64,000 bases of DNA from Eutreptiella sp. 'Long Island Sound 2002' (Eukaryota; Euglenozoa; Euglenophyceae; Eutreptiales; Eutreptiaceae), in NCBI GenBank assembly GCA_964036045.1, contig OZ038383.1:13346430-13410429 (forward strand), written 5' to 3'. This document shows, piece after piece, positions 3,162 through 63,843 of the stretch. The first letter of the stretch is position 1. Every line of letters begins with the position of its first letter. The position numbers and the translations under genes were made by a program. The notes under the pieces are model-generated. The model had not been told where the DNA came from, did not search any database, and worked only from the letters and a program-made list of their open reading frames with translations.

Positions 3162-3409
3162 TTAAATTGTTGCAAGAAATCACTGATTTCGGTGAAAAAA
3201 TCATCTCTTTGCCAACCAAGGAAACTATTCTATTTCTGAAGCTTATCAATCATGTTGCTTTTTTCAGCCCATGCTTTTGCCAATGCAAAATAGGTTGCAA
3301 TCTAAATGCCATACTTCGTCATTTTATGCTTTTTTTTGGGCGCCCTGGATCTTACCAATGCAAAAATAGTTTGAACATACAATCTACCTCTGCCACACTC
3401 AGGAACTCC
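3162..3409. other. AT-rich spacer
   Basis: AT-rich sequence with no recognisable domain. The change from the GC-rich satellite is abrupt at the telomere-type tract. The retroelement copy begins about 3410. Confidence 0.5.
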
Positions 3410-9130: not shown

Positions 9131-9267
9131 TTTCCGGTAGCAGAGACAGTCCCTTGAGACCTTTTGAACCGACTCTGAGAAGAAGTGCAGCACAAAAGCT
9201 CAACAACAAGTTCACGCTGTCCACGCCAAGTGTCAGGACCTGGCCCATCCGAACTGTCCAAGTGCAA

Positions 9268-10884: not shown

Positions 10885-11409
10885 CCTGTCAATGACAAGG
10901 GGGGACCTTGTCATGCCTCTGACTGCGATCTCCGCAGTGGCTGTATGCTGCAGATCAAACGTCAGCAGCATACTAAAGATGGGAAAACTGTGACCCATCA
11001 GGACCACTTCAGGTGTACCATCACCTGTGGTTACTGTGGCAAACGTCGTCACTATGAGGACGAATGCCACATCAAGAAACGCGAGAGTGACAAACTCAAG
11101 CGTCAGGAGGCGGAGCGCCAGAAGACCCAGACGCCCGCCAGAAACCCCCCGAATGGGGATAAAGGTAAAGGAGGTGGCAAGGGGGGTGGCAAAACTGGAC
11201 CCCCTAACCCCCAGAGGCGCTCATCAGCGCCTGTTGCTACACCCACTCCTGCTGCTACACCCGCTCCTGCCGCAGGTGTCCCCCAGAAGCGCCCCCAAAG
11301 GGATAATGCTACCCCTGAGGGGAATAATTCTAAGAAGAGGCGCTTGGCCTGGATGGCCAAGTCCCTCATGGCTGCAGGGGTGGATGTGAAATTCCCTGAT
11401 GAGGAATAG
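10885..11409 (+). CDS. Gag C-terminus: CCHC zinc knuckle (nucleocapsid)
   Basis: In frame with the upstream Gag. It holds one CCHC knuckle, CGYCGKRRHYEDEC (spacing C-x2-C-x4-H-x4-C), at about 11029-11070. This is followed by a Lys/Arg/Gln-rich segment, a Gly-Lys run and an Ala/Pro/Thr-rich linker. This is the usual nucleic-acid-binding nucleocapsid part of gypsy Gag. It ends with TAG at 11407-11409. That stop separates it from protease-RT without a change of frame. Confidence 0.85.
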   Translation, partial: PVNDKGGPCHASDCDLRSGCMLQIKRQQHTKDGKTVTHQDHFRCTITCGYCGKRRHYEDECHIKKRESDKLKRQEAERQKTQTPARNPPNGDKGKGGGKGGGKTGPPNPQRRSSAPVATPTPAATPAPAAGVPQKRPQRDNATPEGNNSKKRRLAWMAKSLMAAGVDVKFPDEE

Positions 11410-11421
11410 GGAGGCGGCTCC
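11401..11421 (+). promoter_or_regulatory. Candidate gag/pol stop-codon readthrough site
   Basis: Gag and pol share one frame and are separated by a single UAG. The context is GAG GAA TAG GGA GGC. A UAG followed by GGA/GGN is the context used for programmed readthrough at gammaretroviral gag/pol junctions. Whether this one is functional or simply a nonsense mutation cannot be decided from one copy. The element has a second in-frame stop 525 bases upstream, and that weakens the case. Confidence 0.35.
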
Positions 11422-14226
11422 GAAGAGAAGGACTTGGTTTTCTGGATCCTCGTGAAAATCAGGGATCAGGTTTTTCGAGCGGTGCTTGATACCGGTGCAA
11501 CACTTTCCATAGTGGCCTGGCGCCTGCTTAAAACTTTCAGGAAAACTAAGACCGTGGCCATAAGAGTAGCGGATGGGCGTACCATCCACTCCTTGGGGGG
11601 GGTCGATGTGACCATATGTCTGGGCGACGAAACCGTGACCCAACACTGCAGAGTGTTGGAGACTGACGCCTTTGACATCGTCATTGGCACCGACTTTCTA
11701 AGAAGGAACCCCCAGGTAAAAATGCTGTCCCTACAGCGTCCTTACTCTTTGCACTGCGACTTTGGCAGTGGGCTATTCTCCGTTCCTTTGGAGCTGTCAG
11801 GACGAAAAGAGTCTGGGCTGCGCTACGCAGCCAAGACGAACTATCGTACTGAAAACTACCAGCTGGCCCGTAACGTTCTTGAAAATGGACTGGCGGCCCT
11901 ACAGGTAAACCTGGATGAGATCCAGGTGGAATTGTTTGCGAGCCAACAACAGCACATCATGCAGTTGTACTGCTCGAAACAAATGAACAATGCTTTCCGT
12001 TTCTTCTGGAAAGCAATGGGCCTAGCGTATGCTGACCCTCCCTTCTCCCTGCTCGCGAAGGTTCTAACCAAGATCGCTTATGAGGGAGGAAGGGTCGTTA
12101 TGTGCACCCCTGACTGGGGTTGCTCTGGTGAACATGCTTACTGGCGCCGTATGCTTGACCGAATGACCGTGGGAAGAGTGCAACTCCCGGACGGCCCCAT
12201 CTATGTGCCTGAGGACTCAGACACAGCTATGCAGGCCCCTGAGTGGGCCAGTTTCCTGTCCATCATCGATGGATCTCTCAATCCTGTACCCCTGTGTGAC
12301 CTGGACCAGGTGCTACTAAAAGAGGTCATGGCCGAAAATCGTGGCCTGACCCTTTATGATCTCAAAAATCGATCTCCTGAGCACCTATCTGCCACACTTA
12401 CAGGGTGTGAGTCTCCTGATGACTATCTGGAACCTGCAGCTGTAAAAGAGGATGGTGACGACCAACTGTCTGAGATCGCCAGCACTATTCCCTCTGTTGA
12501 TCCCAGCTGTGTTGACCTAAAACATAGTGCTTTCCTGGCCCGGCTGTTGCTAGAGGAGGTAGATCTAGAGTCAACCTCTGAACGCGCTTCCTCTGTTGGG
12601 AAACCAGTGCTACACATGCAGCCTGTGCACACAGGTGAACCCGTGGCCCGGAGTGCTGATGCTCTGGCACGGCCTGCTGCTAATAACATGCCATTGTCTG
12701 AGCATGACACTGAAAAACTCCGACGGCTGTTGTACCTGAAGGCCGAAGGTATTGAGCGCCAAGAGCGGCTGCAATACCTCAGACAGACCTGGAAATACTC
12801 CATCTGGTCTGAGGAGGATGATGAGTCCTATACGCTGCCTGATCCTGAGATACCTCTAGTGTATTCTCTACACTATGGGCAGCAATGTCCCCCTGAGTGG
12901 GACGATGGTACTGTACCTGCCGAAACTGCTGATCGGCATAAAAAGAAAGAACATGGAAAAAGCAACCTCCATGCTGAGGAGGATTTCCTTCAGAAACTCG
13001 AGAGTCTTAACCTTGACCCCCGCCTGAAGAAACTGCTTATAACCTATGAGGAGGTGTTCGGCGCCTTGCCGCCTCCCCTTTCTTGTAAAAAGCTGGTCCA
13101 GATGGACCTGAAATTGAAACCAGAATTTGAAAAGACGCGAGTGAGGCGTCGTCCCTATCCCGCTCCACAGGAACAGGTCGAAGAAATCGAGCGCCAGATC
13201 CAAGAATCCATTGATGCTGGCCTCGTTGAAGAGTATAAACACGGGGACTATCCCCATCACTGCAGTCCCTGTTTCCTTGTTGCCAAACCAGGGTCGACAG
13301 CCCTACGTCTTGTTGTAGACTATGGTGAGGTCAACAAGAAAACCCAGAACCACTCAGGGAGTATTCCTAACATGGAAAACACCCTGGAGCGTATTGCCAA
13401 ATGCAGGTATAAGACCAAAATGGACAAACGCTCTGGTTTCTGGCAGGTTGACCTAACCGCCGCAGCTCAGGAGCTGCTGGCCTTTATAACCCCTAAGGGT
13501 CGTGTCTTCAAGTGGAAGGTTATGCCTTTCGGGGTGGCAAATGCCCCAGCGCTCTTCCAGGAGCTTATGAACAAAATTTTGTACATACTGAGGCGCAGGC
13601 CTCTAGTACAAGATTTGATTTCTCGGGGTGCAGAAATGGAGGCTCACATCGACGACGTCAGTTTAGGTACTAATACCAAAGAGGACCACGTCCTTCTCCT
13701 CCGTGAATTTTTCACTGTCTGTCAAGAAAACCATCTCCGAATCAAACTCGAAAAATGTGAGTTTATGAAAGAGGAGATGGAGTATTTGGGTTTCGACGTG
13801 GGGTATGGCTGGTGGAGACCAGTCGCGTCTAAGATGCAGCCCCTACAGGACATGCAGATTCGCGATGACCCTAAGAAGGGTCTACACGATGTGAGGAGTT
13901 TTGTGGGCGCGTGTAATTTCTATCGGCGTCACATCCACAATTTTACTTACTCCTCTGCACCCCTCACTGACCTGATCAAGAAAACTACTCCCTTGAGGTG
14001 GACCTCCAGAGAGGAAGAGTGTTTCCAGGAGTTGAAGAAAAAGATTGCCTCCTCCAACTGCCTGGGAGTGCCCCGCCCTGAGGGCGAGATAGTCCTGATC
14101 ACTGATGCCAGTGATGTAGGGGGGGGAGGTACGATCTACCAATGGCAGGAGCTTAACCTCTGCTACCAGAAAGATGTCCTTGCTTTATGCCGTAGATATT
14201 TTGATGATGTCCTGCAGGTTTTGTAG
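11410..14226 (+). CDS. pol: Pol: aspartic protease, reverse transcriptase and truncated RNase H
   Basis: Continuous with gag in frame. The protease is marked by LDTGAT (GAT codon at 11488) and VIGTDFLRR. A long linker follows, then an RT of Ty3/gypsy type: SPCFLVAKPGSTALRLVVDY, FWQVDLT, MPFGVANAP and the catalytic HIDDV (13645-13659). The RT thumb/connection has GLHDVRSFVGACNFYRRHI. RNase H starts at LITDASDVGGGGTIYQW but is cut off after WQELN at about 14155. There R700 copy B begins, and it supplies the last ~20 codons and the stop. RNase H active-site residues beyond the first Asp, integrase and chromodomain are therefore missing. The copy cannot be autonomous. Confidence 0.9.
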   Translation, partial: GGGSEEKDLVFWILVKIRDQVFRAVLDTGATLSIVAWRLLKTFRKTKTVAIRVADGRTIHSLGGVDVTICLGDETVTQHCRVLETDAFDIVIGTDFLRRNPQVKMLSLQRPYSLHCDFGSGLFSVPLELSGRKESGLRYAAKTNYRTENYQLARNVLENGLAALQVNLDEIQVELFASQQQHIMQLYCSKQMNNAFRFFWKAMGLAYADPPFSLLAKVLTKIAYEGGRVVMCTPDWGCSGEHAYWRRMLDRMTVGRVQLPDGPIYVPEDSDTAMQAPEWASFLSIIDGSLNPVPLCDLDQVLLKEVMAENRGLTLYDLKNRSPEHLSATLTGCESPDDYLEPAAVKEDGDDQLSEIASTIPSVDPSCVDLKHSAFLARLLLEEVDLESTSERASSVGKPVLHMQPVHTGEPVARSADALARPAANNMPLSEHDTEKLRRLLYLKAEGIERQERLQYLRQTWKYSIWSEEDDESYTLPDPEIPLVYSLHYGQQCPPEWDDGTVPAETADRHKKKEHGKSNLHAEEDFLQKLESLNLDPRLKKLLITYEEVFGALPPPLSCKKLVQMDLKLKPEFEKTRVRRRPYPAPQEQVEEIERQIQESIDAGLVEEYKHGDYPHHCSPCFLVAKPGSTALRLVVDYGEVNKKTQNHSGSIPNMENTLERIAKCRYKTKMDKRSGFWQVDLTAAAQELLAFITPKGRVFKWKVMPFGVANAPALFQELMNKILYILRRRPLVQDLISRGAEMEAHIDDVSLGTNTKEDHVLLLREFFTVCQENHLRIKLEKCEFMKEEMEYLGFDVGYGWWRPVASKMQPLQDMQIRDDPKKGLHDVRSFVGACNFYRRHIHNFTYSSAPLTDLIKKTTPLRWTSREEECFQELKKKIASSNCLGVPRPEGEIVLITDASDVGGGGTIYQWQELNLCYQKDVLALCRRYFDDVLQVL

Positions 14227-14880
14227 TTGAAAACCCAAACCAAAGCAGCAAGTAGAGCAATAAGAGGATGTGGATCGAATCAATGATTGGTTTTGGAATC
14301 CAGTGTAACACAGAAGGGCTGCAGATAGACAATGCAGGTTTATGCACATAGATTCAATCACAAATGGATAATACAAAAGGTTTTATATGAAAATTGGTCT
14401 GACTCTTGCCTCAGAGGTTGCAATAGGCACTTCATGTGCACTCTTTTGGGTGAAATTGTGCTGGTTAGGACTGAGGGGCATAGATGTCAGGACCACACAG
14501 AATATGACTTGGCCAAGCAACTGAATTCAGAAACAGTTACAGAGTAGGACCACAATAAGTGGTAGAAACAATTGAGTATAGGGGTCTTGGGGTGGGAGAC
14601 CACTTAGGCTTAACCTCCAAGGCCAACAAGCATGAAATGCCTGATTTATTTTGGTACGTCCTCCATGAAGGAAGGTACCTCCGCTCAGTTGAGTGGTAGG
14701 GGTGAACTTCATGGGGGGGCTAGGGTCACAACCCTAGTTACTTTGAGAAAGTGTACTTTAGGCAACAAAAGAGAGATAAAAACACTTAAGTTTGTCTTAG
14801 CATCAACAAAGGGTTTTAAGGGGGGCTTAGCCTGGATCAAGCCCTCCAAGAAAGACATGGCAGTGACTTTTTCTTACTAC
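14168..14880 (+). repeat. R700 copy B, truncating pol
   Basis: Nearly identical to 7049-7760, with only scattered substitutions. It is the same orientation as copy A and inverted relative to copy C (20257-20938). It begins AGAAAGATGTCC directly after the truncated RNase H and ends near GTGACTTTTTCTTAC. Because it equals the outer third of the inverted-repeat arm, it looks like an arm fragment moved or recombined into pol. Confidence 0.88.
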
Positions 14881-16009
14881 CCTCAATCGGGTTCGGCGCT
14901 CCAGACATCTACACATCCGCTGCTTGCGCACCCCTGCTCCTGGCCTGGCAGTGCCCTGCAGTCCCATGCCTGTGGTTACCAGCGTGAACAGATTTGTAGC
15001 CACCCAGCGAGTGTGTGCCTTGTTGACCACTTGTTGTATGGGATATGTCCCAATGTTATGACCTTGGGGAGCCAACGAAGAGCGGTGGCTTACTACTCCA
15101 TGGGGGAATGACAAGCAAGGTGCTGTGCAGCAAGGTGTGTCCACCCCCTTGGGGACAAGTGTGCCCACAGTTAGGACCCCTAACTGGTCGAGACCCATGG
15201 GGTTCTACCCTTCTTAGCGGTGTTACCATACCCCTAAGTGTGCCATGTATGTCTGTATGTGTCGCACTTCCCGCGAAACAGGCTTCGCTAACTTCGGACC
15301 GGAGGTCCCAATCAGGTACTATGACCAGTCCTATGGCGCCCAATTTCTGTGCTGGCGCCCATCCCTTGGGGAAGACGGCAAAAGCCCTACCTACCAGGGG
15401 GGAGGGCTGGCCAAGTGTGCTAAGGGCATACAAAACGCCCATTTTTCTAAGGGCCAAAAACTAACGCACTCCCCTGCCCGCGAGGAAAAGCACGCGGAGC
15501 AGGAGACACCAGTACACTACACTCATTAATGCCAGCACCAGCCTTCGAAGGCAGGGTGAGCACAACCGCACTCAGTCCCTGCCAGCCTTGCTGACCCCAA
15601 CCGCTACACACGCTACTGGATGGCCATGGCAAACAAGTCACGAGCCCTATTGGCTCCCCTGTGAGATTACAAGGGAACACAGCGCCGCTTGCCAACTGTG
15701 GCCTGCCAGGGACGCCCTCGCGCTTTTCCCTGACAGGGCTTGGAGCGAAGGAGTGCCGTGTGCACAGCGTGTAGTAATGGTCGTCCCTAAAGAAGTCATT
15801 CACTGACCCATTTGTTTGCATGATCTGCGCCCTTTTTAGCGTGGTCGAAAAATGGAAAGTCGCTGAAGGCAACTGCTGCTGCACCACGTCACCCTTGACC
15901 CTTTCCCACCTGAGAGCAAAGGCGGATGAAGGACGGTTAGCGGCTGAGGAACCTAACTACCTTCGCTGTATTATACAGGTCTTAGGGTAGAAAATAATAC
16001 GCTGTCCTC
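14881..16009 (+). other. Interior sequence without recognisable genes
   Basis: About 1.1 kb between R700 copy B and the right arm. Short ORFs on both strands overlap and have no family signature. No LTR termini or polypurine tract were found. It may be 3' non-coding sequence of the original element or an unrelated insertion. Confidence 0.4.
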
Positions 16010-22229: not shown

Positions 22230-22790
22230 GTAGGGTACTCAACCACCTTGGCCAGAGCCCATGTGCACAGATACATATGCTCATACAACAGAGAGAACAG
22301 CGGTCTTCCTTCGCTGGGGACCTATGCAGAGGGTTCATCGCAGAGGATCACAGGTACTATCTGAATGTTATAAAGTAGGGTACTAAGCCACCTTGGCCAG
22401 AGCCCATGTACACAGATTCATTTGCTCAGAGAACAGGGGTCTTCCTTCACTGGGAGACGTATGCAATGAGTTCATGGCAAAGGATCACAAGTACTATCTG
22501 AATGTTATAAAGTAGGGTACTCAGCCACCTTGGCCAGAGCCCATGTGCATAGATTCATTTGCTCAGAGAACAGGGGCCTTCCTTCACTGGGGGACCTATG
22601 CAGAGAGTTCATCGCAAAGAATCACAGGTACTATCTGAATTTTGTAAAGTAGGGTACTCAGGCACCTTGGCAAGAGCCCATGTGCACACATTCATCTGCT
22701 CAAAGAACAGGGGTCTTCCTTCACTGGGGGACCTAAGCAGAGAGGTCATTTGAACGATTCATACATAATGCCTGAATTTTGTGAAGTACA
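22230..22790 (+). repeat. 137-bp tandem array, left part
   Basis: GTAGGGTACT recurs near 22230, 22375, 22512 and 22649, with spacings of 145, 137 and 137. The next unit would start at 22786, where the LTR element begins. Each unit includes AGAGCCCATGTGCA and CTTCCTTCACTGGGG. Confidence 0.9.
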
Positions 22791-26131: not shown

Positions 26132-26440
26132 GCATAGTACTGAGCCACGTTGGCCAGAGCCCATGTGCATAGATTCATTTGCTCAGAGAATAGGGGCCTT
26201 CCTTCACTTGGGGACCTATGCAGAGAGTTCATCGCAAAGGGTCACAGGTACTATCTGAATTTTGTAAAGTAGGGTACTCAGCCACCTTGGCGAGAGCCCA
26301 TGTGCACAGATTCATCCGCTCAAAGAACAGGGGTCTTCCTTCGGTGGGGGACCTATGCAGAGAGGTCATTCGTACGGATCATACATAATGCCCGAATTTT
26401 GTGAAGTAGGGTACCCAGCCACGTTGGCCAGAGCCCAGGG
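26132..26440 (+). repeat. 137-bp tandem array, right part
   Basis: Units resume at 26132 with GTAGGG repeats at 26269 and 26406, spacing 137. The array fades after AGAGCCCAGGG near 26440. Confidence 0.88.
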
Positions 26441-26447
26441 GCACAAT

Positions 26448-26834
26448 TTCAAGGGTTGGGGTAAGGTGCTCGCAGTGGAGGGCTTTGAGTGCACAGTCAA
26501 GTGGCACACAGAAAAGAAAGCCAGTTCCCATTGTATTACAGATGTGTTTCTTACTGCTCTTCATAGCATTCCGAGGTCGGACAGTGCATCAGAGGCCCCT
26601 TTGTATCTGGAGTCTGAGCACGAAGCTACTGACCCCGAAAGGTTTCTACGCCGAGCTACTCAGCAGAATACCCAGACACAGAGTGATCCAGCCAAGCTTT
26701 TTCTGCTCGTTTCTTCTGAAGTACCACGTGTTACTCACGTGGCTGTGCCGCAGTGTCTGCCAGCCATAGTTATCAACTGCTTACAACCCTGCATCCCAGC
26801 ACAAAATTTCGTGCATTTTCTGCGGCTTTCATAG
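26448..26834 (+). CDS. Exon-like ORF, unrecognised
   Basis: An open frame starting inside the last array unit. The part reading GWGKVLAVEGFECTVKWHTE looks like a small beta-barrel (Tudor/SH3-like) segment. A Ser/Glu-rich stretch follows. No start codon of its own or clear splice site was identified. It may be an exon fragment or part of a mobile element. I cannot name it. Confidence 0.25.
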   Translation, partial: FKGWGKVLAVEGFECTVKWHTEKKASSHCITDVFLTALHSIPRSDSASEAPLYLESEHEATDPERFLRRATQQNTQTQSDPAKLFLLVSSEVPRVTHVAVPQCLPAIVINCLQPCIPAQNFVHFLRLS

Positions 26835-34970: not shown

Positions 34971-35018
34971 AAAATAGGGCAGTAGGAGGGAAATGAGCGA
35001 AATGCTAGTGTGAGGCAA
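34971..35018 (+). repeat. ~45-bp duplicated segment, copy 2
   Basis: Second copy of the 34085-34131 segment. It overlaps the stop codon of the phosphatase gene, so that gene's last few residues may come from repeat sequence. Confidence 0.75.
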
Positions 35019-38000
35019 AAACAGACTTGTACTGAACTTGGGCAACGTGCTTCTGGATGTCGTTTGCTGCCGTGCATTCCCTGAGGTATGTGATCAGATG
35101 CAGCAGCTCGGAATCCTTGTTGTACTCATCACTGTTTTTGCACTTGGTGGCGTCGTAAGCGTCGGGGTGGATGGCATTCTGTGGGTGCCGTGATGCCTTT
35201 CTTGGGTCGTCATCCACGAGCAGCGTGTTCTTCGGATTCCAACCGATCCCCAGATTCCTAACACAGGCAATCGGCATGGAGCCAGGCATGCGGGAAGATG
35301 GAATCTGCCGCCCATGGGGCTTTACCACTCGCCCCTGGATCGACGAAGCGGGGAATGGGCCCTTTGGAGAGGGGGAGGGGGGGTGTTGGCACGACGCCTG
35401 GGTGTGTTGTTGTCTTCTACAGCTTGCGGCCCCTATTGGCCGATCGCCATTCGCTGCCCTTCCCTTCCCTTTCCTTGAATGAAGGTCCACCAAGCTGCTG
35501 GTTTTTTTTTTATAGGGGGGGCAGACTTCCTTGTTCGAGGGGGTGGGGGTGGGGACGTTCAGGGTGGGTGGGTGGGTTGGGCCCCCCCAGCCCCCACCCT
35601 GCGGGTGCCGATTTTTTAGGTGCCGAAAATAATTTTTTTGGTGCAATCGTGAGAGCCACCGTGAAAAAAAAAAGATCACCAGCAAACAACAATTGCCACA
35701 CTGAATTCCCCAATGGGGGTTCCAAGCCTTTTTCGAAACTCTGTGAAGGCAAAAAGGCTGCAGCTTTAGCCATGGCATGCAATGGCATTTCTCCAAAGGG
35801 ATGTGAACGTGCGGCAGTGCCATGCATGCTGTCAAAGCTTTGTGGAAGGGCAGCTTCAGGCTTCGTCCACTGCAAGAACATACATGCCATAGCTGTAGTA
35901 TAGGGACCCAAAATGCAACAGGCAGACGGAGGTAACAATGGCAGAACAAAGAATGCAGTGCAGAGTACAAAGCAGGCAACGACATGGATCAATTGCGCCA
36001 AAGCGCCAAAGCAACAATTTGGCCCAATCTTGTAAGAAGGGGGTGGTGGTTTGGGACCCGCCCACACCACCCCCTTGGGGTGCTGAGTTGTCAAGATGAA
36101 CTCTTGAGTGGGGCGGGGAGGGGGGGTACAGCACACCAGCAGGCCCACCCCAAATTGCGCAAGCGACTTCTGGTCACGGAGCACCCTCTATTCCTGACCC
36201 CTCTGGCACAAGACCCGGATATGCGCCGCACCACCAATGCAATTGGTACCACTCTGGGACCCGTTACCAGCCCCCCCCCCCCCCTCCTCCGGGCCCTATG
36301 TGACACCTTCGCACATCAGATGTGGTGATGAGGGGCCCTGCCAAACCTCAGAGTCTTCGGAGTGACGGACGGGCAAGGCTCCTGTTAGTGCAGGCAGGGC
36401 CATGGACTTTGCAGGGGCAGTGATGCTGCAATCCTGAGCACCGGGACAACAGTCCCACTCTCACGCACACAACACTTCACCCCCCCCCCCCCGCCCCAAT
36501 GCTGCGAGTAGCAGAAACAATCCACTATCTGGGGGCATGCCTTCACAAAAAATCCCCAACAATGTGTTCCACTGGAATCATCCACCGTACCACACCTTTG
36601 ATGGTTCAGCCCCCCCCATAGTGGGCCAACCTGATCCCCTCCCTCTCAATCGGTCTTGGTGGTGGTAGTAGTGGGGGGGCAGGGGGGCGGCACTCAATGG
36701 TCTCCCAAGCACTTGGCGAAGTGGGCCCCACAAGGATCGCCCGCCGGAGGAGCAGGGCCCTCTGGCATGTGCTCTCAAAGGAACGCGCAGCACAACGTTG
36801 GGCCCAGACGAATGGGGAGGGGGCCTGTGGTTGGGGGGGGGGGGGGGATGAGACCAAACTAAAAAAAACAGACAAATGCAAACCAGAGGTAATGCACTCC
36901 ACAGAAAGGCATAAGTGCATCTTTATTGTCTATGCCAAACCTGGTTGAACCTCAAGACACACACTGTGTCTGAAACAGAAAAGGTTGGGGGGGGGGGGGT
37001 TGCAAGACCCCCCTCCCCCTCAAAAGCGGCTCTCGTGGCAGACCCTCAAAGTACTTCTGGGGGGGGCGGGGTTCGATGCTGGCCGGTGCAAGCTGGAGAA
37101 GATGGAACTCAGCCCAAAAAATCAGCCTCACCTCCCCAATGCCAGACATGGGGCGTCCATCTCCACCAACACCAACACTGCCCTCATCTGCTGTGTCTCA
37201 TCCACTCATCCAACAACAGTCGGTGAGGCCAACGGAAAAAGCAACCCCCATCCCCTGGGCAAGCGTCAAACACGTGTTTGGCAGTGGTTGGCAGGTGACC
37301 ACCATATTTTTGGCAGGTGGGCTCATTTGTGACCCACTTCCCACGTTGTAGTTCTGAGTGAGTCAACGATATGTTTGAGACATGCCCCTAGCAATGAAAT
37401 GGCGTGTGCCATCCAGAGATAATCCTGCAGATCGTGTCAAAAACTTGCATCTGTTCTCCGAGCGCTTGAAACATGTTCCCCCCAAACAGCTGTCCAGTGA
37501 CTCTTGGAAAAGGCCGTTTGCCCAGTTGAAACAATTTCCATATATCCCCCCCCCCCATCTACCGAGGCCGATTCCCCAATTGGGGAAAATTGTCCTCCGC
37601 GAAAACCCCGTCCCCAGTTCCTGGATTGGGGATTTTTGTCCTCTTGGGACAACCCCCATCCCCGGTTCCCGATCTTGAGTCCTTGTCTACCTAGCGATAT
37701 TTTCCTGCCGGTCGACCACCGCCATGCAGCCCTCGAGACCCGCGTCTGCCCCGCCCCTGACAGCCCCCGAGCCCGTCCCCCATAGGCCCATGCCCCAGGG
37801 CCCGCCGCAGCCGATCCAGGCCTTACAGACGCCAAGGGATGGTCTTGTCAACTCGCAGCCCGCGTCCTCTCGGCCGCCCAATCCCACACCGCTGTTGGTG
37901 CTCACGCCGTACCCGGGGGGCTGGTGCAGTTTGAGCTGCTGCTGCACGTTCTGGTATGTGAGCCCCTTCTGCTTGCCTCTGATATGGCAGCCTCTGATAT

Positions 38001-39833
38001 GGCAGCTGCACTGCATCCTCAACAGCCTCCCGCCGGCAAACCAATCCCTGGCCCTTTTTAGAGAAGTCCGCAGAAACTTGCTTGCTTGCGACACCAAAGC
38101 GGAACGCGCGCGTGCCCGTAAAATGCAGAGGGTGCGTGCCCCCACGTCCAATGGCGTAGGGGCGTAGGAGCGTAGGGGTGGGCTGACATTAGAAGAGAGG
38201 GGGCTAAAAAAAACAGACAAATGCAAACCAGAGGTAATGCACTCCACGTCACATTAGAAGAGAGGGAGGGGGGGGGGGTCTGGGACCCAAAAATGTGTGA
38301 CTCAAAAATGGCCCGATCAGATTTTCCCGATGGTAAATTTCACTTTTCCCACGATGGTCACTTTGGTCTTGGGGGGGGGGGGGTCTCTCCTATTGTTGTC
38401 GGAGCACGGGTGCAGGTTGAGAATGAGGGAAAGCAGTACGACTGGCCCACATCATAGATTGCAGGGTGCTGCGGCAAGCGGAGGCAAAGGTGGAGAAAAT
38501 ACCAGATGTGTGACAGGTCCTTGATGCCCAACGGATACTTCATCTCCGGGATTTTGACCAAATCACAGGCCTCCCTCCCGAGGATGCTCACCTGAGGACA
38601 CGTGACAACAAGGACAGGGGGGCTACAATGACCATGCACACTGCAAACAATCAATATTGTGGTGATTCAGAGATACACATGTCGACATGCTGATGCCCCT
38701 CAATAAGCTTTGGAGCCAGGCGGGTGAGCAGTATGTGCAGTGGATGCTCGCACAAACATACGAAAAGATCGGGTTTGAAATACTTCTGAGCCACGGCTTG
38801 CACGTTTGCAGTCATCGCACTCGACCAAATCATGGGCAAGTAGTGCCCTCTGTTTTCCTATAGGAGAAGATTCCCAATCATTCAAATACGGGAGTCCCCA
38901 CGCCTCAAGCTACACAAGCGCTCGTTGGTAACTGAAATTTTAATTGTAAAATTGCCTTTCAGAAATTGCTTTTGTTCGCTTGCACATGGGAAATTGTGCT
39001 TGCTTATCGGTTTTTTCCCTCAAATGTGTTACATTTTGTCTGCGTAGGTCCCGAGAATGCAGCACAAAAGTTGCTGGTGTTCGACCTGGACGGCATCCTC
39101 TGCGACCGCAGCCTGAAGAAAAAGGCCCATCGGCTGTTGAAGACCTACCGAGATTTTGACGAGCACCCCTTTGTGGCGCGGAGCAGGCCTTATCTTGCCG
39201 CGTTGGTGAAGTTTTTGAAGGTGTCTCAAAACTGTGGGTTTCCCCATGCAATGCTGCCCCTTTTTGCATGCCTTGTGACCTTTTGTGAGGTAGACCAATG
39301 GTTTTTCATTTGGCGTTCGGGTGGTCGGTTTACGCACACCTCAAAGTAAATTTTGCCCGCCCCATGAGAGGGGCGAAGCACATGATCCGGGGAAATTGTC
39401 CTCACCCCCGGGTGTTGCGGGATTCTCCTATCCATGTGGTATTCTCCTATCCAAGGGAAGCAAACGAAAAAGTCAATCGTGCCACAAATTCTCGAATTTT
39501 GTTCAAGATCACGGTATTTTTTGCCGCCAAATATCATTTGAGCTGATGGATAATTGAATAAATATTTGAAGCGTGCATTGGAGTGTGTAAAAAGGTCAAA
39601 GGTCACAAGGCATGCAAAAAGGGGCAGCATTGCATGGGGAAACCCACAGTTTTGAGACACCTTCAAAAACTTCACCAACGCGGCAAGATAAGGCCTGCTC
39701 CGCGCCACAAAGGGGTGCTCGGCAAAATCTCGGTAGGTCTTCAACAGCCGATGGGCCTTTTTCTTCAGGCTGCGGTCGCAGAGGATGCCGTCCAGGTCGA
39801 ACACCAGCAACTTTTGTGCTGCATTCTCGGGAC
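35005..39833 (-). CDS. FCP1/NLI-interacting-factor-like HAD phosphatase, exons 1-4 seen
   Basis: Exons are E1 39833-39661, E2 38857-38762, E3 38591-38503 and E4 35257-35005. Splice phases fit: E1 ends on a full codon, E2 and E3 follow, and the last two bases of E3 plus the first of E4 rebuild a Trp in KDLSHIW. E1 has the HAD motif I, LVFDLDGILCD (DxDG). E2 has MIWSSAMTANVQAVAQ, the FCP1 motif II region. E3 has YPLGIKDLSHIW, where the motif III lysine is expected. E4 has NTLLVDDDPRKASRHPQNAI, the acidic motif IV. The HAD core is thus complete over about 202 codons. E1 needs an upstream exon because it starts mid-codon after an AG. E1 lies in the right arm of a palindrome, with E2 and E3 in the left arm. 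FCP1-type enzymes dephosphorylate Ser/Thr on RNA polymerase II tails or other targets. The substrate here is unknown. Confidence 0.85.
35680..35869 (-). CDS. Putative extra exon inside the phosphatase E3-E4 intron
   Basis: Bounded by TTCTTGCAG on the acceptor side and G/GTGATC on the donor side. One frame reads PLHAMAKAAAFLPSQSFEKG with balanced codon use. Its phase does not fit between E3 and E4 without breaking the restored Trp. It would therefore be an alternative exon or belong to another transcript. No domain was recognised. Confidence 0.3.
35870..37075. other. Intronic/intergenic DNA with C and G homopolymers
   Basis: Several runs of 10 or more C or G (36273-36287, 36480-36493, 36833-36848, 36987-36999). 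The 36861-36901 block around ACAAATGCAAACCAGAGG recurs at 38209-38248, so a short dispersed repeat is present. No supported gene. Confidence 0.5.
37076..37294 (+). CDS. Pro/Ser/Thr-rich exon-like ORF
   Basis: A plus-strand frame including MGRPSPPTPTLPSSAVSHPL and ending HVFGSGWQ at a good donor (CAG/GTGACC). Low-complexity, with no recognised domain. It lies on the opposite strand to the phosphatase, inside one of its introns. Confidence 0.3.
37724..37953 (+). CDS. Pro-rich first-exon candidate
   Basis: Starts with ATG in a favourable context (GCCATGC) and reads MQPSRPASAPPLTAPEPVPH. It ends at a strong donor (TTCTG/GTATGTGAG). It cannot be the first exon of the mirror-image phosphatase copy downstream, because the phases do not match. 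On the minus strand the same stretch is also open after a CAG acceptor, so the strand is uncertain. Confidence 0.35.
38357..39283 (+). repeat. Left arm of a ~927-bp near-perfect inverted repeat
   Basis: Pairs with 39598-40523 with only a few differences. One is an A/C change giving Asp versus Ala in E1 (RDFDEHP versus RDFAEHP); others are near 38364 and in the G-run length near 38371. It contains E3 and E2 on the minus strand and E1 on the plus strand. Confidence 0.95.
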
Positions 39834-40378
39834 CTACGCAGACAAAATGTAACACATTTGAGGGAAAAAACCGATAAGCAAGCACAATTTCCCATGTGCA
39901 AGCGAACAAAAGCAATTTCTGAAAGGCAATTTTACAATTAAAATTTCAGTTACCAACGAGCGCTTGTGTAGCTTGAGGCGTGGGGACTCCCGTATTTGAA
40001 TGATTGGGAATCTTCTCCTATAGGAAAACAGAGGGCACTACTTGCCCATGATTTGGTCGAGTGCGATGACTGCAAACGTGCAAGCCGTGGCTCAGAAGTA
40101 TTTCAAACCCGATCTTTTCGTATGTTTGTGCGAGCATCCACTGCACATACTGCTCACCCGCCTGGCTCCAAAGCTTATTGAGGGGCATCAGCATGTCGAC
40201 ATGTGTATCTCTGAATCACCACAATATTGATTGTTTGCAGTGTGCATGGTCATTGTAGCCCCCCTGTCCTTGTTGTCACGTGTCCTCAGGTGAGCATCCT
40301 CGGGAGGGAGGCCTGTGATTTGGTCAAAATCCCGGAGATGAAGTATCCGTTGGGCATCAAGGACCTGTCACACATCTG
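39048..40378 (+). pseudogene. Mirror copy of phosphatase exons E1-E3 on the plus strand
   Basis: The plus strand reads E1 at 39048-39220, E2 at 40024-40119 and E3 at 40290-40378, with the same AG acceptors, GT donors and phases as the minus-strand gene. No E4 was found downstream on the plus strand, where the CSN7-like gene lies antisense. A full HAD domain cannot be completed, so I call it a pseudogene or antisense transcript source. If expressed, its RNA would be complementary to the phosphatase pre-mRNA and each RNA could fold on itself over the arms. Confidence 0.7.
39284..39597. other. 314-bp loop between the palindrome arms
   Basis: Unique sequence not shared by the arms. It is open on the minus strand as a read-through of E1, but lies in the intron of both mirror gene models. 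It includes the near-repeat GATTCTCCTATCCA / TATTCTCCTATCCA. Confidence 0.8.
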
Positions 40379-40523
40379 GTATTTTCTCCACCTTTGCCTC
40401 CGCTTGCCGCAGCACCCTGCAATCTATGATGTGGGCCAGTCGTACTGCTTTCCCTCATTCTCAACCTGCACCCGTGCTCCGACAACAATAGGAGAGACCC
40501 CCCCCCCCCAAGATCAAAGTGAC
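39598..40523 (-). repeat. Right arm of the inverted repeat
   Basis: Reverse complement of 38357-39283. It holds E1 on the minus strand and E2 and E3 on the plus strand. Coordinates in the two arms sum to about 78881. Confidence 0.95.
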
Positions 40524-40601
40524 ACAAAAGCCACAGAGCAGGACTAGCTGCTGCAGCGAAACCTTGTGCACCATCAGGGGGACTGAGACTCTCAGGCACA
40601 C

Positions 40602-41981
40602 CTTGCAAACCTCGCAGAACCGTGAGCCTCTGCAGTTTGATTTTTTCCGCTACACCCAGCTTCGGGAGATCGTTCTTCTCTGAAGAAGCAATACGAGTAG
40701 GATTCTGCAAGAAGCATTTCAACGCAATCGTCCTTCTTACACACCAATGTTTTCGCCATACATCCATCGGACATCGATAGCAGCATGGCGTCTTGCGACA
40801 GCGAACCTTGGTCAACTAGGCCACCTCAAAACAACACACGTTCCACCCGTTGAACGAATGCCACCCTGTGACCCAAGGCTTCCTAAACCAAATGGAGGCA
40901 TCATTGAATCAAAGTTACTAAATTACACTAAAATCGTTCAGATGGCCTTATCCCATTCTTGGACAAGGGGCAGAAAGGCATTTTGTCTTTGGAAGGCACG
41001 CTCTTCATAAGAACGGCGACCCGCGGCAAAGAGCCGTGTAGGGATCGAGGAAGAGGTGCAATCTGTTGTGCTTGCCCTTTTGTGAGCATAAGTAATTCGA
41101 AGGGTAGGATTTCGAGTGCACAACTGCAATAATACTAGACCCGCGGCGATCAAGCACTGAGAGGATCGCGACACTCCCTTGGGCCCAATGCATCATATGT
41201 GCGTGCTTCAAGAGCCTTGTCCTGCTTTTGGAGGAAAGTGGTGCCATGAGCGCTGGTCACGTTCCACCATGGCTGCGATCCTTCCCTTGGGTGGCGCCAT
41301 CTAGGACCCGCAAAATCGCAGCCTCCCATGGTCATGAAGAGTGTCAAGACATGTACCGCTCCGTCGTATTGAGTAAATGAAGCACTTGGTGGATTATAAG
41401 GCAGGCGCCATATTGCGTGTTTGCTTTTCGTTCAAGTGCTACTTCCCACTTTCCCGAGGAGAAAATTAATGCGGGTTACGTTGCGAAGACATCTCCCACG
41501 GAAGAAATCCTCCGTGCCCACGCACAACAGATGACTTGCAAAGTTTGGGTATTGTGGAGCGGCACCATACCGTTATAGTCGCGCAAAGTACCGTGCGCAA
41601 AAATCCATAAGAGATCGTACCACTTCTTGTGTTCACAAAAATAAGGCTTCGTCGACAACTAATAGAAAAGATGGATAAATGTCGGCATCCGTCCTCAAAA
41701 AATTTTGGACACGAACGGCGCATCTGGAAACAATTGTGTGGTAACCCATACGATGAGAGCCCGTTCGTGACGCCAACATAACGAAGCCCACACACCCACC
41801 GGCACGTAGCCCCATGACCTGGGACGTGGGACGCAGGACCCTCACGTACCTCAATGACGCTGTTCAAATCTAGCAACTTGCCGAAGACGAGAAAACCTGG
41901 TGCTTGAAGTGCTTGTTTAATTATGTGTACTACACCGGCACCACAGGCCGTCGAAGCCGCGGTAACAAGTTGTTCGGCCAT
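40602..41981 (-). CDS. COP9 signalosome subunit 7-like, first three exons
   Basis: Exon 1, 41981-41850, starts MAEQLVTAASTACGAGVVHI and includes QALQAPGFLVFGKLLDLNSV. This fits the CSN7 N-terminus, where a (V/F)FGELLD block is typical. Exon 2, 41625-41571, reads KWYDLLWIFAHGTLRDYN, matching the 'LF-YGTY-DY' helix. Exon 3, 40679-40602, reads NDLPKLGVAEKIKLQRLTVL, matching the 'LP-L...KL--LT' helix. Junctions are GT-AG and in phase. Together they give 88 residues of a protein usually over 200 long. The rest of the PCI domain was not found, and the next sequence downstream is the palindrome. CSN7 is a structural subunit of the complex that removes NEDD8 from cullins. This copy is either truncated, continued by a distant exon, or fused to the phosphatase. 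Confidence 0.75.
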
Positions 41982-42444
41982 GGGAGCTGTAAAGTATTGC
42001 AGTGCAACATAACATGAGAACTGGTCATTTCGATCTTGAGTCCGATGGTTTACGTTGTCTTCCGCGATCGTGGTATTCGCATAGTAGCAGCTTGCACTTT
42101 GAGATTGGGGTCGAACAAAAAGGCACACACTTTTTCAGGGTGTGCGGTCCCTGCCGACTGCACTTGGACCCGCACACCAGTATCCGCAACATCTGCTCAG
42201 CAGTCACCCCCAAAACCGGACAGTGACCCCCGTGGGTGACCAAGGTTACCACCGAAATCTGGTCACACTGAATATGTCTTGCAGACTTTTGTCGATATTT
42301 TCTGCCTTAAAACCAAAGGACCAAAAAATTGAATGCTTAAATTTTTCCCTCAGCATCAAATGCAAAGGTACTTTGGGGCTTCCTCTCAGTGTCCTTTCGG
42401 ATGAAACTATTGAATCAATTATTATTGTATTGATCTGAAGCTCA

Positions 42445-42678
42445 ATGCATCCGACGAAGTTGCTCCAACGTGTTAAAAGAACAAGGACAACATTTTCGTC
42501 TCCAGTGGAGGAAAGCACCATCTTGTCGCGGATTGCAGAAGTGATGGAAATGGAAATGGTGAAAGTGGTCACCGCTCACTCAGCATACACTGCAGCAGCA
42601 GCTCTAGCCAACAAACAAGGCAACCAAGTAGCCTTCCGCTTGGGCTACCAAAGGCAGACACAGCATACAGTCAAATAG
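42445..42678 (+). CDS. Exon-like ORF, unrecognised
   Basis: Plus-strand frame MHPTKLLQRVKRTRTTFSSP followed by an amphipathic stretch (RIAEVMEMEMVKVV) and an Ala-rich end. No domain recognised. It lies upstream of the CSN7-like gene on the opposite strand. Confidence 0.3.
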   Translation: MHPTKLLQRVKRTRTTFSSPVEESTILSRIAEVMEMEMVKVVTAHSAYTAAAALANKQGNQVAFRLGYQRQTQHTVK

Positions 42679-43237: not shown

Positions 43238-43678
43238 GGGTGATTTGCCGAACTCCGAGCATTTTCCGCCCGTGGGTCACAGTCGCGTCGATTTCTCAAT
43301 ATTTTTTGGGGATCTGCTGGATTTTTCTGGATAGATCTACAGATTGAGAGCCAGGCTCTCGATTGATGTAAAAAGATCCAGGATTGGTGCTAAAAATCGG
43401 CAGATCTGCCGCTGGGAACACAGCGCTCTCAGAAAGTGCGCTAAAGGCGGGACTTGCCAAATGGCGAGCATATTCGATGCGGGTCACAGTCACGGCTCGT
43501 TTGCACGCTACATAGCACCAAATCTTATAAATTGTGGTTCTACGGGTACCTACGGACCCAGGCTAGGTAGGAGGGACGGATCCAGGGGTTTTTTCTGGTT
43601 GGGCCCTTTTTTTTTCTTCGGCACTGACGGTACCTCCTGCTTTTCACTACGGTTTTCTTGTTTTTCTCAACGGTGTCC

Positions 43679-45637
43679 ATGGAAAACAGCCACCCTGGTC
43701 TTGATGAAGGACAGTTTTCTTTGTCCTTCAAGTGGACAGATTCCACAAGTCTCCGGTTGGCTCAAAAGGATCCTTTTGCGGCTGCTCTACTCTATGAAAT
43801 AGAGAGTAGTGTGGGTTTGAGCAGGGAGCAGTCGAGCAGTTCAGAGGGACTGCTGTTTTCTGCCAGTGACGTTGAAGAGTCGGATAACGAAGAAGAAACC
43901 GACAAACAAAAGAAAGCAAATCTAGACACGATTCTAGACTTTGTTCCTTGCTCACAACCAGATTCTGATGAGGGGACGAGTCATCATGACCATTCTCCTC
44001 TCAAAAATCTGGAAGATGCATCCGTAAATCGTAGTGGTCGACCGGTGCGGGCTGCCTCACTTGGGGTGGCTCAATACTTGGTGGCAGCCAAGGAGGCTGC
44101 CTCTTCCCGGGCTTGTGTTGAGGCCGGACCAAGGGGTTTGCGGACCAAGAGTCAAAAGAGGACGGTGAGTCAAACGGCAGTGCGCCGATCACAGGCCGAA
44201 TCATGCATGCCGGGATCTGGTGTCGTGCAAACTTCCACCCAACCTGCCCCTCCTCTCACCTCTCGTTCCTTGTTGTTGCCTCAATACGTTGCGGACTTTG
44301 AAAAGTTGCCGTTGAGGTATTTGCAAGGGAAAGATCGTAGGATGAGCAACGTTGATCGTGCCGTTGCGCGAATCTTGATTGGTCAAATCACGATTCATCA
44401 AGTGTTCCGGCATCACACCACTAAATCTGCGGTCCGGGCCAGAATGACAAGGTTGCGGAACGGCCTAAGCACCCCGGGCCGCAAACCATCCTTGCCGAAT
44501 AGTATTGAGAAAGCGTTGTTTGAGTATGTAGATGAGCACGTGAACGCCGGTATGGCTAGATATAGGGATGAGGTGTGGGAGCATGCTGAGACACTGGCGA
44601 GACGGGCCAAAGTGCCTTTCACGGCTTCTTGGTCATGGTGGCGCAGGTATGTGAAACGGTGGCCTAAGGTGGCCTACCGTATGAAAGAGGCCACCAAGCT
44701 TGAGCGGTTGCGTGCGGAGAATCCGGAGAGCGTCAAGCGTTGGTTCGAAAAATACGTAGACACCATAGGGAAATTGGGAATCACATCCAAGGACCAGGTT
44801 GCCATTATCGATGAAGCTGGTACCTTCATCGGTTATGGCAACCGTCGCAAGGTTGTGGGGACCAAGGGGAAGAAGGCCGGGCGGGGGGAGCGGGAGGAGC
44901 GGGAGTGGATCTCCGTGCTGGCTGGTGGTACGGCCGACGGGGTCCAACTGCCACCGTGCTACCTCCTCCGGGGGGGAAACGTGATGGGCAACCTGGGGGA
45001 ACATGGATATGCCATCCGGGTGCCCAAGGCATTCAACACGCACGACGGGTTTCGGGAGTATATGAAGAGTGTCTTGATTCCGTGCTTGCGCCCGACTGCA
45101 GCACGCCCTGTGCTTGTCCTTACGGACGGGCACCGGAGTCGTGTGGACTTGGAGGCAATCCGCTTTGCCCGAGAGCACCACATCCACCTGTTCCTTCTTC
45201 CTCCGCATACGACGCATTTCCTTTGCCCGTTGGACACCCATTGCTTCCGGCCCATGAAACAGGTGTTCGTAAAGGTGTTCGATGGGCATATGAATAGTTA
45301 TAAATCGGACATGGATCGATTCGTGAAGGAGTTTGGTGAGGTATACAACAAAGGGCTTACCGAGAATAACCTTAGGAACGGGTTTGCCGACCTGGGTCTT
45401 TGGCCCCCTGCATGGCCAAAGATTAGCGAAAAGCTGGATGGGTATCGCAACCGCGAGGCCATGCAGAAGGCCGAAGATGATGCACAGTCCGCGTCGTGGT
45501 GGAATGGGACCCCGACATGCCTGCGCCTGTACCTTCCTCTCCCAGCGCCTCTTCGCCCCGTGCCCCTGCCACCCCTGCTGTGTCCAATCGGAGCTCAAGC
45601 GCCAGCACCAGCGTTGGCGCATCGCCACCAGGTATGA
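43679..45637 (+). CDS. Pogo/CENP-B-type DDE transposase (DD35D)
   Basis: The ATG at 43679 gives 652 codons. An acidic Ser-rich N-terminus is followed by a helix-turn-helix DNA-binding region (around KSAVRARMTRLRNGLSTPGR) and a CENP-B-like second helical part (SWWRRYVKRWP). The DDE_1 catalytic core has IIDEAGTF (D378), LVLTDGHRS (D483) and PPHTTHFLCPLDTH (D519). The spacing D-35-D fits pogo-like enzymes. The triad is intact. The last ~50 residues, after DDAQSAS, are low-complexity and probably out of frame, because the sensible continuation is in the next frame (45496-46326). A small indel or recoding event near 45490 would join them. It cuts and pastes the element at TA sites. Confidence 0.92.
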   Translation: MENSHPGLDEGQFSLSFKWTDSTSLRLAQKDPFAAALLYEIESSVGLSREQSSSSEGLLFSASDVEESDNEEETDKQKKANLDTILDFVPCSQPDSDEGTSHHDHSPLKNLEDASVNRSGRPVRAASLGVAQYLVAAKEAASSRACVEAGPRGLRTKSQKRTVSQTAVRRSQAESCMPGSGVVQTSTQPAPPLTSRSLLLPQYVADFEKLPLRYLQGKDRRMSNVDRAVARILIGQITIHQVFRHHTTKSAVRARMTRLRNGLSTPGRKPSLPNSIEKALFEYVDEHVNAGMARYRDEVWEHAETLARRAKVPFTASWSWWRRYVKRWPKVAYRMKEATKLERLRAENPESVKRWFEKYVDTIGKLGITSKDQVAIIDEAGTFIGYGNRRKVVGTKGKKAGRGEREEREWISVLAGGTADGVQLPPCYLLRGGNVMGNLGEHGYAIRVPKAFNTHDGFREYMKSVLIPCLRPTAARPVLVLTDGHRSRVDLEAIRFAREHHIHLFLLPPHTTHFLCPLDTHCFRPMKQVFVKVFDGHMNSYKSDMDRFVKEFGEVYNKGLTENNLRNGFADLGLWPPAWPKISEKLDGYRNREAMQKAEDDAQSASWWNGTPTCLRLYLPLPAPLRPVPLPPLLCPIGAQAPAPALAHRHQV

Positions 45638-46326
45638 CGGCGGCGGGCACTCAGGTATCCCCGGGGTTGAAGGTGCGTCAGCGCCTGTGGAAGAAGAAAC
45701 CGGACGCCCCCGGGTACAAGAAGCCCCGCCGCCTGGACATCGTGCTGGTGCAAGGGGGAGAGCTGACCGGTGATGAGGTTGTGCAGGACCTGCAGGTAGA
45801 GGTGGATGAGAAAGAACAGAAAAAGGTAGACGCGGAGCGACGCAAGAGAGAGCGCGAGCAGAAACGGGACGAAAAGAGGAAAGAGGAGGAGGATAGGAAA
45901 CAGAAACAAGAGGAACGCAAACGGGCCGCAGAGGAAAAGAAACAAAAGGCAGCGGAGGACAAACAGCGACGCGACGCGGAACGTGCGGAGGCGAAGCGGA
46001 AGAAAGAGGAGGAGCGGGCTGCCACGCAGGCATCCCGACCCCGCCGCGGCACCAAGCGGAAGGCGCCCGAGCCCGACATGTGGGATGACGGCACCACGTG
46101 CCCCTGCGGCCAGGATGTGGGCACCGGCAAGACTGAGAATTGGGCCCAGTGTGATGCATGTGACTGCTGGATCCATGATGGTTGCTTTGGGCTCGATTGG
46201 GGGCGTGATGGCCCCTACATCGAGCAGAGCGACAGCCGCTGGCAATGCTCTTTGTGTGCGCCCAGGTCCGATGACGACTCGGATGGTGACTCCCAGCCCA
46301 ATATGGCTGGGAGTGACAGCGAGTAG
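45496..46326 (+). CDS. C-terminal transposon frame: charged coiled coil plus PHD finger
   Basis: Overlaps the end of the transposase frame by 142 bases, shifted by one base, and has no ATG at its start. It is therefore likely the transposase C-terminus. It contains a Ser/Pro linker, a basic patch, a long Glu/Lys/Arg coiled coil (about 45810-46020) and a basic nuclear-localisation-like RRGTKRKAPEP. It ends with a C4HC3 PHD finger: CPCG, CDACDCWIHDGC and WQCSLC. PHD fingers commonly read histone H3 tails. A transposase that carries one could choose target chromatin. An acidic tail ends the protein. Confidence 0.85.
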   Translation: MVEWDPDMPAPVPSSPSASSPRAPATPAVSNRSSSASTSVGASPPGMTAAGTQVSPGLKVRQRLWKKKPDAPGYKKPRRLDIVLVQGGELTGDEVVQDLQVEVDEKEQKKVDAERRKREREQKRDEKRKEEEDRKQKQEERKRAAEEKKQKAAEDKQRRDAERAEAKRKKEEERAATQASRPRRGTKRKAPEPDMWDDGTTCPCGQDVGTGKTENWAQCDACDCWIHDGCFGLDWGRDGPYIEQSDSRWQCSLCAPRSDDDSDGDSQPNMAGSDSE

Positions 46327-63510: not shown

Positions 63511-63843
63511 TTGCGAACCAAAGGTTTCTTGGGTGCATCAGAGGGTGTTGAGGATTTTTTGGGGGCCAATGTGCCTGCTCGCATAGCTGTGCAGCAGGGG
63601 GTTGTGCAAGCTGTACATGCTTCAATTCATGCAGCCAACCGCCCTGCCCCCGTTGGGAATGCCCTTCTTGCAAAGCCACCCCCGCAGTCCCGTGCAAGAG
63701 CACCCCAGAAGGTACGACACCGGGTAGCCTCTTGTGCCTCAGCTTGTGACAACATTGCTGTTGACTCTCGTGACAGTGACCCAAACATTGATTGTGATGC
63801 CGACAGTGTTGCCTCATTAGAAGGCTGGGCATGTTGGTGTTGA
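63511..63843 (+). CDS. Exon-like ORF near the right edge
   Basis: Reads EDFLGANVPARIAVQQGVVQ, a basic Ala/Pro/Arg middle and an acidic Asp/Ser end (NIDCDADSVASLEG) before a stop. No recognised domain. The minus-strand frame over the same bases is richer in His and Cys and less plausible. Confidence 0.3.
   Translation: MRTKGFLGASEGVEDFLGANVPARIAVQQGVVQAVHASIHAANRPAPVGNALLAKPPPQSRARAPQKVRHRVASCASACDNIAVDSRDSDPNIDCDADSVASLEGWACWC

Follow-up and report, generated by a model that had tools for sequence, protein, structure and literature searches.

A palindrome carrying sense and antisense copies of phosphatase exons, probably a single gene beside which its own exons have been copied in inverted orientation

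Geometry of the palindrome

The stretch of DNA that was analyzed, hereafter the window, is 64,000 nt long and contains a large palindrome made up of the following parts.

38357..39283, no strand: left arm (core 38372-39283)
39284..39597, no strand: loop, 314 nt, one copy in the window, within intron B of the gene described below
39598..40523, no strand: right arm (core 39598-40509)

Each core arm (38372-39283 and 39598-40509) spans 912 nt, and the two are complementary at 911 of these positions. At the single mismatch, an A at 39159 stands against a C (in the sense reading) at 39722, so that exon E1 encodes Asp or Ala, the same difference between the arms that had been described previously. 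In our alignment, the homologues carry other residues at this site. Extending the arms outward to 38357 and 40523 adds one substitution and a 1-nt difference in the length of a G run. At the outer border of the palindrome, GTCACTTTG is common to both sides and lies beside a run of 12-13 G, which may be a fragile site.

The loop occurs as a single copy in the 64-kb window, and self-comparison of the window (E 1e-10) revealed no further copy of either arm or of the loop. When the loop and an arm were compared with the window by short words, the arm matches listed included G-run and 13-nt matches. The inverted repeat is thereby confirmed; it lies far beyond chance expectation and is unusual. Each arm carries E1 of a phosphatase gene on one strand and E2 and E3 on the opposite strand. 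This opposed layout, claimed in the preliminary description, was borne out both by self-comparison and by tblastn searches with homologous proteins. The sequence comparisons show the palindrome, the order of the exons, and the homology of E1 to E4.

The phosphatase gene on the minus strand

Among 722 candidate proteins, five were homologous at an E value of ≤0.01, all of them at ≤3.4e-38 and with 41-46% identity. The named one of the five stems from transcriptome data for the euglenid Eutreptiella gymnastica. A narrower search, the length range of which excluded longer proteins, returned none of 80 candidates, and none of 59 pattern matches among viral contigs was confirmed as a homologue. When the five homologues were compared with the window by tblastn, each matched E1 and E2 in both arms and each matched E4 at 35.0-35.3 kb on the minus strand (E ≤ 5.6e-13). 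E3 alone was unmatched by the homologues in the same search at an E value of 1.

The minus strand carries one collinear NIF-type phosphatase gene, with E1 taken from the right arm, E2 and E3 from the left arm, and E4 following. Its features, including a putative first exon considered below, are as follows.

40602..40767, minus strand: putative E0, including a start codon; its donor, AAG|GTGTGC, is in phase with E1; unproved
39661..39833, minus strand: E1, sense, right arm, with HAD motif I (DLDGI); homologue matches and spliced alignment
38762..38857, minus strand: E2, sense, left arm, with the IWSSA motif; homologue matches and spliced alignment
38503..38591, minus strand: E3, sense, left arm (GREACD ... 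KDLSHIW); spliced alignment to homologues, unmatched alone
35005..35257, minus strand: E4 and stop codon, with the LVDDDP motif and the C-terminus; matched by all five homologues

The exons themselves were found as previously described, but their borders had to be corrected with the aid of the homologues, to 39833-39661 for E1, 38857-38762 for E2, 38591-38503 for E3, and 35257-35005 for E4. An earlier set of borders (E1 to 39648, E2 from 38847, and E3 to 38443) was dropped because it produced insertions relative to the homologues, of 1 residue at the E1/E2 join and 20 residues at the E3/E4 join. With the corrected borders, all four proposed introns are of the GT-AG type: the four donors, that of E0 included, begin with GT, and the four acceptors end in AG followed by G. 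The reading frames of E1 to E4 join without a stop.

The spliced product matched the Pfam NIF domain (PF03031) over positions 1-159 of 160 with a score of 72.5 bits, compared to the curated cut-off of 21.8 bits. Before splicing, the open reading frames of E1 and E4 scored 13.6 and 29.9 bits, respectively, when taken alone. The first set of borders gave 61.7 bits, which rose to 72.5 bits with the corrected borders and E0; the match begins at residue 63 of the product, past E0. The product could be aligned with all five homologues (E ≤ 8e-55), and the E1/E2, E2/E3, and E3/E4 joins were ungapped in at least four of the homologue alignments. Relative to the homologues, the product is missing 18 residues in the region of E3, and so the gene could be decaying. 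An exact 44-nt direct repeat (36859-36902 and 38204-38247) lies near long G runs, with both copies within the E3-E4 intron.

NIF/FCP-type HAD phosphatases carry a DxDx(T/V) motif I and an acidic DD motif close to the end of the domain. In E1, motif I reads FDLDGIL, with both Asp residues present and Ile at the fifth place. The five homologues all have Val at that place, and two of them have Asn for the second Asp. The DDDP of E4 is invariant in the alignment of six rows. A profile search of the PDB with the product yielded one match, UBLCP1 (3shq; E 4.3e-05 for the whole sequence), and a single-sequence search of the PDB yielded none. With a full-length domain above the cut-off, the predicted product of the locus falls within the NIF/FCP-type HAD family and is a putative phosphatase.

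A putative upstream exon

E1 is devoid of an in-frame ATG on either strand, and an upstream coding exon is therefore needed. The best-scoring candidate on the minus strand is E0 (40767-40602), with a donor score of 3.7 at 40601. A donor of fitting phase is also found on the plus strand, at 37317, where it scores 4.1, higher than the one on the minus strand. Thus, the upstream exon does not discriminate between the strands; E4 does. Comparison of E0 with four homologues gave equal or better scores for 1,483, 754, 728, and 1,471 of 2,000 shuffled sequences. In a local test, null peptides scored as high in 102, 3,183, 3,183, and 678 of 3,906 cases for the homologues P0011, P0012, P0013, and P0015, respectively. 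These tests being weak or negative, E0 is kept as a putative exon.

Reading of the plus strand

The second copies of E1 to E3 lie in antisense orientation to the minus-strand gene.

39048..39220, plus strand: inverted E1 copy, antisense within intron B of the minus-strand gene; homologue matches
40024..40119, plus strand: inverted E2 copy, antisense, upstream of E1; homologue matches
40290..40378, plus strand: inverted E3 copy, antisense, upstream of E1

By their coordinates, both antisense blocks fall outside E1 to E4 and outside the putative E0. The two exon arrangements given in the preliminary description were confirmed, namely E1(left)-E2(right)-E3(right) on the plus strand and E1(right)-E2(left)-E3(left) on the minus strand. 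The splice sites and phases of E1 to E3 are likewise kept on both strands, as had been stated, owing to the identity of the arms, and on the plus strand the three exons join in frame to give a product that covers positions 1-102 of the 160 of NIF (35 bits).

Where the two strands part is E4, and the claim that it exists on the minus strand only was upheld. All five homologues placed it there, and when the plus strand was searched with the C-termini of the five homologues and with the E4 of the gene itself, no E4 bearing the invariant DDD came to light. The product of the plus strand therefore ends at position 102 of NIF. Where an E4 of that strand would be expected, at 40799-40873, there is a weak match to the C-termini of homologues P0013 (E 0.057) and P0012 (E 0.072), interrupted by a stop and lacking DDD, which is probably due to chance. 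The gene's own E4 matched the plus strand at 63658-63780 (E 0.005), 23 kb away and again without DDD, and this match is also taken as chance. At the DNA level, E4 had no match beyond chance in 40379-42500 of the plus strand, since 142 of 200 shuffled sequences did as well.

The central claim of the preliminary description, that the same gene can be spliced from both strands, is thus unsupported: the plus strand has no DDD-bearing E4, its product stops at NIF 102, and E1 offers no in-frame ATG. We rejected the two-strand gene as the main reading on the first two of these grounds. With a complete phosphatase on the minus strand and none on the plus strand, the locus is likely to hold a single gene accompanied by antisense copies of three of its exons.

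Predicted folding of the unspliced RNA

The unspliced RNA from 40767 to 38357 (2,411 nt) has a predicted folding energy of -2121.6 kcal/mol, or -0.88 per nt, with a longest uninterrupted helix of 775 bp. Controls, four stretches of equal length, ranged from -704.7 to -889.1 kcal/mol (-0.29 to -0.37 per nt). In the predicted fold, each of the six E1-E3 splice sites takes part in pairing between the two arms. The prediction agrees with the earlier claim that the pre-mRNA would fold on itself but not with the claim that folding would place E1 next to E2: the E1 donor at 39660 is paired to 39221, whereas the E2 acceptor at 38858, paired to 40023, lies some 360 bp farther along the stem, and the splice sites would be buried.

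We also folded the RNA with introns removed, a series in which removal of the intron preceding E1 depends on the putative E0. Without that intron, the predicted energy was -0.516 per nt, the longest helix was 124 bp, and the sites of E2 and E3 were out of the duplex between the arms. With intron B removed as well, the values were -0.302 per nt and 11 bp. The unspliced RNA could form a hairpin of about 912 bp; if the intron preceding E1 were spliced first, the partner of E2-E3 would be gone, and splicing of intron B would remove the partner of E1. Given this predicted loss of structure, whether mRNA or hairpin results would depend on the order in which the introns are spliced. The window contains no Rfam matches at the gathering score and no tRNA genes.

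Other features of the window

Two direct repeats of 715 nt (7050-7764 and 14168-14882) are 98.5% identical. They flank an open reading frame (11434-14226) that has an aspartyl protease, a reverse transcriptase, and an RNase H-like domain, preceded by one (9154-10884) that may be gag, by position only and without Pfam support. The whole of 7050-14882 resembles a young LTR retrotransposon, and 3395-4845 is 87% identical to part of it. A second mobile element is represented at 43658-46326, where there is a DDE_1 transposase open reading frame to which three ENA proteins (P0001, P0002, and P0005) are 98-100% identical over 21-92% of it. It is followed by a weak PHD-like open reading frame (45496-46326) that scores below the Pfam cut-off. 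In P0003 and P0004, a similar PHD-like sequence appears by eye to be fused to parts of the transposase, and the transposase encoded by the DDE_1 element may therefore end in a PHD-like tail. The window also holds a tandem array at 6-1964 (4.7 copies of a 419-bp unit, about 75% G+C, open on several frames) and 137-bp tandem units in two separate places, 22230-22788 and 26137-26451.

Origin of the layout

To describe the layout, we denote E1 as X, E2-E3 as Y, the loop as L, and the flanks as U and D, with a prime marking inversion. The minus strand then reads U Y' X L X' Y D. Judging from the order of residues in the homologues, the ancestral order would have been U X L Y D. We searched for paths between the two in which any series of consecutive blocks could be inverted, deleted, or copied directly or in inverted orientation; U and D stayed in place, and the loop was accepted in either orientation. 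Within this restricted search, no single step produced the layout, in keeping with the earlier statement that it is hard to obtain by simple inverted duplication, and three paths of two steps did. In two of the three, X and Y are copied in inverted orientation beside the exons, and the gene is readable throughout. In the third, X L is inverted and an inverted copy of X' Y follows, which breaks the gene midway; this path accounts for the identical X'|Y junction of both arms without homology-guided extension. As the gene is still complete, the paths that preserve it are preferred.

We consider it probable that the locus is one minus-strand gene to which two local rearrangements added inverted copies of its own exons, the exons on the plus strand being a by-product. 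On this reading, the minus strand bears just one gene for a NIF/FCP-type HAD phosphatase, E1-E2-E3-E4, preceded by a coding exon that is unproved. The locus would have been rearranged locally in two events, most probably template switching during replication or repair by fold-back, in an order that we can only infer. One would have put an inverted E1 copy into intron B and the other an inverted copy of E2-E3 upstream of E1, inside the preceding intron if E0 is right. Since the junction within each arm is identical, the second copy was probably a homology-guided extension of the first palindrome. Microhomology at the loop border amounts to 0 nt, which does not favor fold-back. If the gene is expressed, its mature mRNA would be free of all inverted copies, and the E1-E2-E3 of the plus strand would be incidental.

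Alternative explanations

It is unlikely, in our estimation, that the palindrome is an artifact of assembly or amplification, in which case the true locus would be a plain E1-E2-E3-E4 gene and the inverted copies would stem from chimeric palindromic molecules. A fold-back during sequencing is expected to leave little or no loop, whereas a 314-nt loop is present here. The arms continue into different flanks, and there are three differences between them, namely one substitution in the coding sequence, one at the edge, and the length of a G run; by the block order, three new joins would be needed as opposed to one in a fold-back read. The arms are nevertheless almost identical, and palindromic chimeras, according to the excerpted report, are common after whole-genome amplification and have reached a published long-read assembly (PMC6218980). 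The gene would also be intact without both copies, and its integrity is thus no proof of the palindrome. Quite unlikely is a dedicated hairpin-RNA gene, the predicted double-stranded RNA of which would be diced into siRNAs repressing this phosphatase or its paralogues. The predicted 775-bp helix in the unspliced 2,411-nt RNA is consistent with such a gene, as is a Drosophila hairpin RNA that arose from an inverted piece of an exon at a distance of one gene from its parent, in the excerpt of PMC10317233, but the exons here remain whole and in line with E4, for which a dedicated hairpin RNA would have no use. We regard as more doubtful still a gene that silences itself through its splicing. Its antisense copies of its own exons would sit in the flanking introns; fast splicing would give clean mRNA, while slow splicing would leave the 912-bp hairpin to be diced, silencing the gene and its relatives, so that the locus would read out the speed of splicing.

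A true two-way gene, with both strands transcribed and spliced into E1-E2-E3 proteins, is highly improbable. All splice sites of E1 to E3 are retained on both strands, the plus strand has an upstream donor of fitting phase that scores slightly above that of the minus strand, and a weak C-terminal match lies downstream at 40799-40873. That match, however, is interrupted by a stop and lacks DDD, 142 of 200 shuffled sequences matched the strand downstream of E3 as well as the E4 DNA did, the product reaches no further than NIF 1-102 of 160, and E1 has no in-frame ATG. The least probable reading is that a fold-back transposon captured exons and that the arms are its terminal inverted repeats. Long arms, a short loop, and open reading frames of mobile elements within the window would suit it; against it stand the single occurrence of arms and loop in the 64-kb window, the absence by eye of a target duplication at the edges of the palindrome, and the fact that the arms hold the gene's own E1 to E3 in usable order.

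Comparison with known systems

A literature search for a palindromic gene or one with exons on two strands gave no match; the library was partial and the terms were narrow, which makes this weak evidence of novelty. If real, the locus is an inverted duplication of a gene's own exons in which all antisense pieces fall outside the coding exons and the coding sequence is thereby left intact. Such a locus would offer a natural test of whether co-transcriptional splicing can outpace a near-perfect 0.9-kb RNA hairpin, and it would perhaps show a hairpin RNA soon after it began to emerge from a parent gene. There is a caution as well, as palindromic exons may mimic a gene readable both ways.

Fold-back inverted duplications, known from humans (PMC3907307) and yeast (PMC10622511), consist of inverted copies around a unique spacer, as here. 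In the human cases covered by the excerpt, the spacers were 766-70,466 bp, the duplications shown were megabases long, and 13 of 21 sequenced junctions had 2-8 bp of microhomology (PMC3907307). Our locus differs from them in its 0.9-kb arms, its 314-nt spacer, the return of both ends to other sequence, and the need for a second step. A unique spacer is present at our locus, and short inverted homology at its border is not (0 nt). Palindromic amplification artifacts (PMC6218980, in excerpt) likewise contain near-identical inverted copies; the loop, the three joins, and the differences between the arms fit them poorly.

Nonconventional introns of euglenids, the group to which the named homologue also belongs, contain inverted repeats that form a stable structure, according to the excerpted account (PMC6221363). 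These introns have unconventional borders and pair their own ends, whereas all four proposed introns here are GT-AG and the pairing is between intron and exon. Drosophila hairpin RNAs (PMC10317233, in excerpt) share with our locus an inverted repeat of an exon of a coding gene and a long predicted double-stranded RNA; at our locus, a long near-perfect hairpin is predicted by folding. In the same excerpt, the Drosophila hairpin RNAs are separate loci near or far from their targets, whereas here the repeat lies inside the gene itself, with its antisense parts outside the coding exons.
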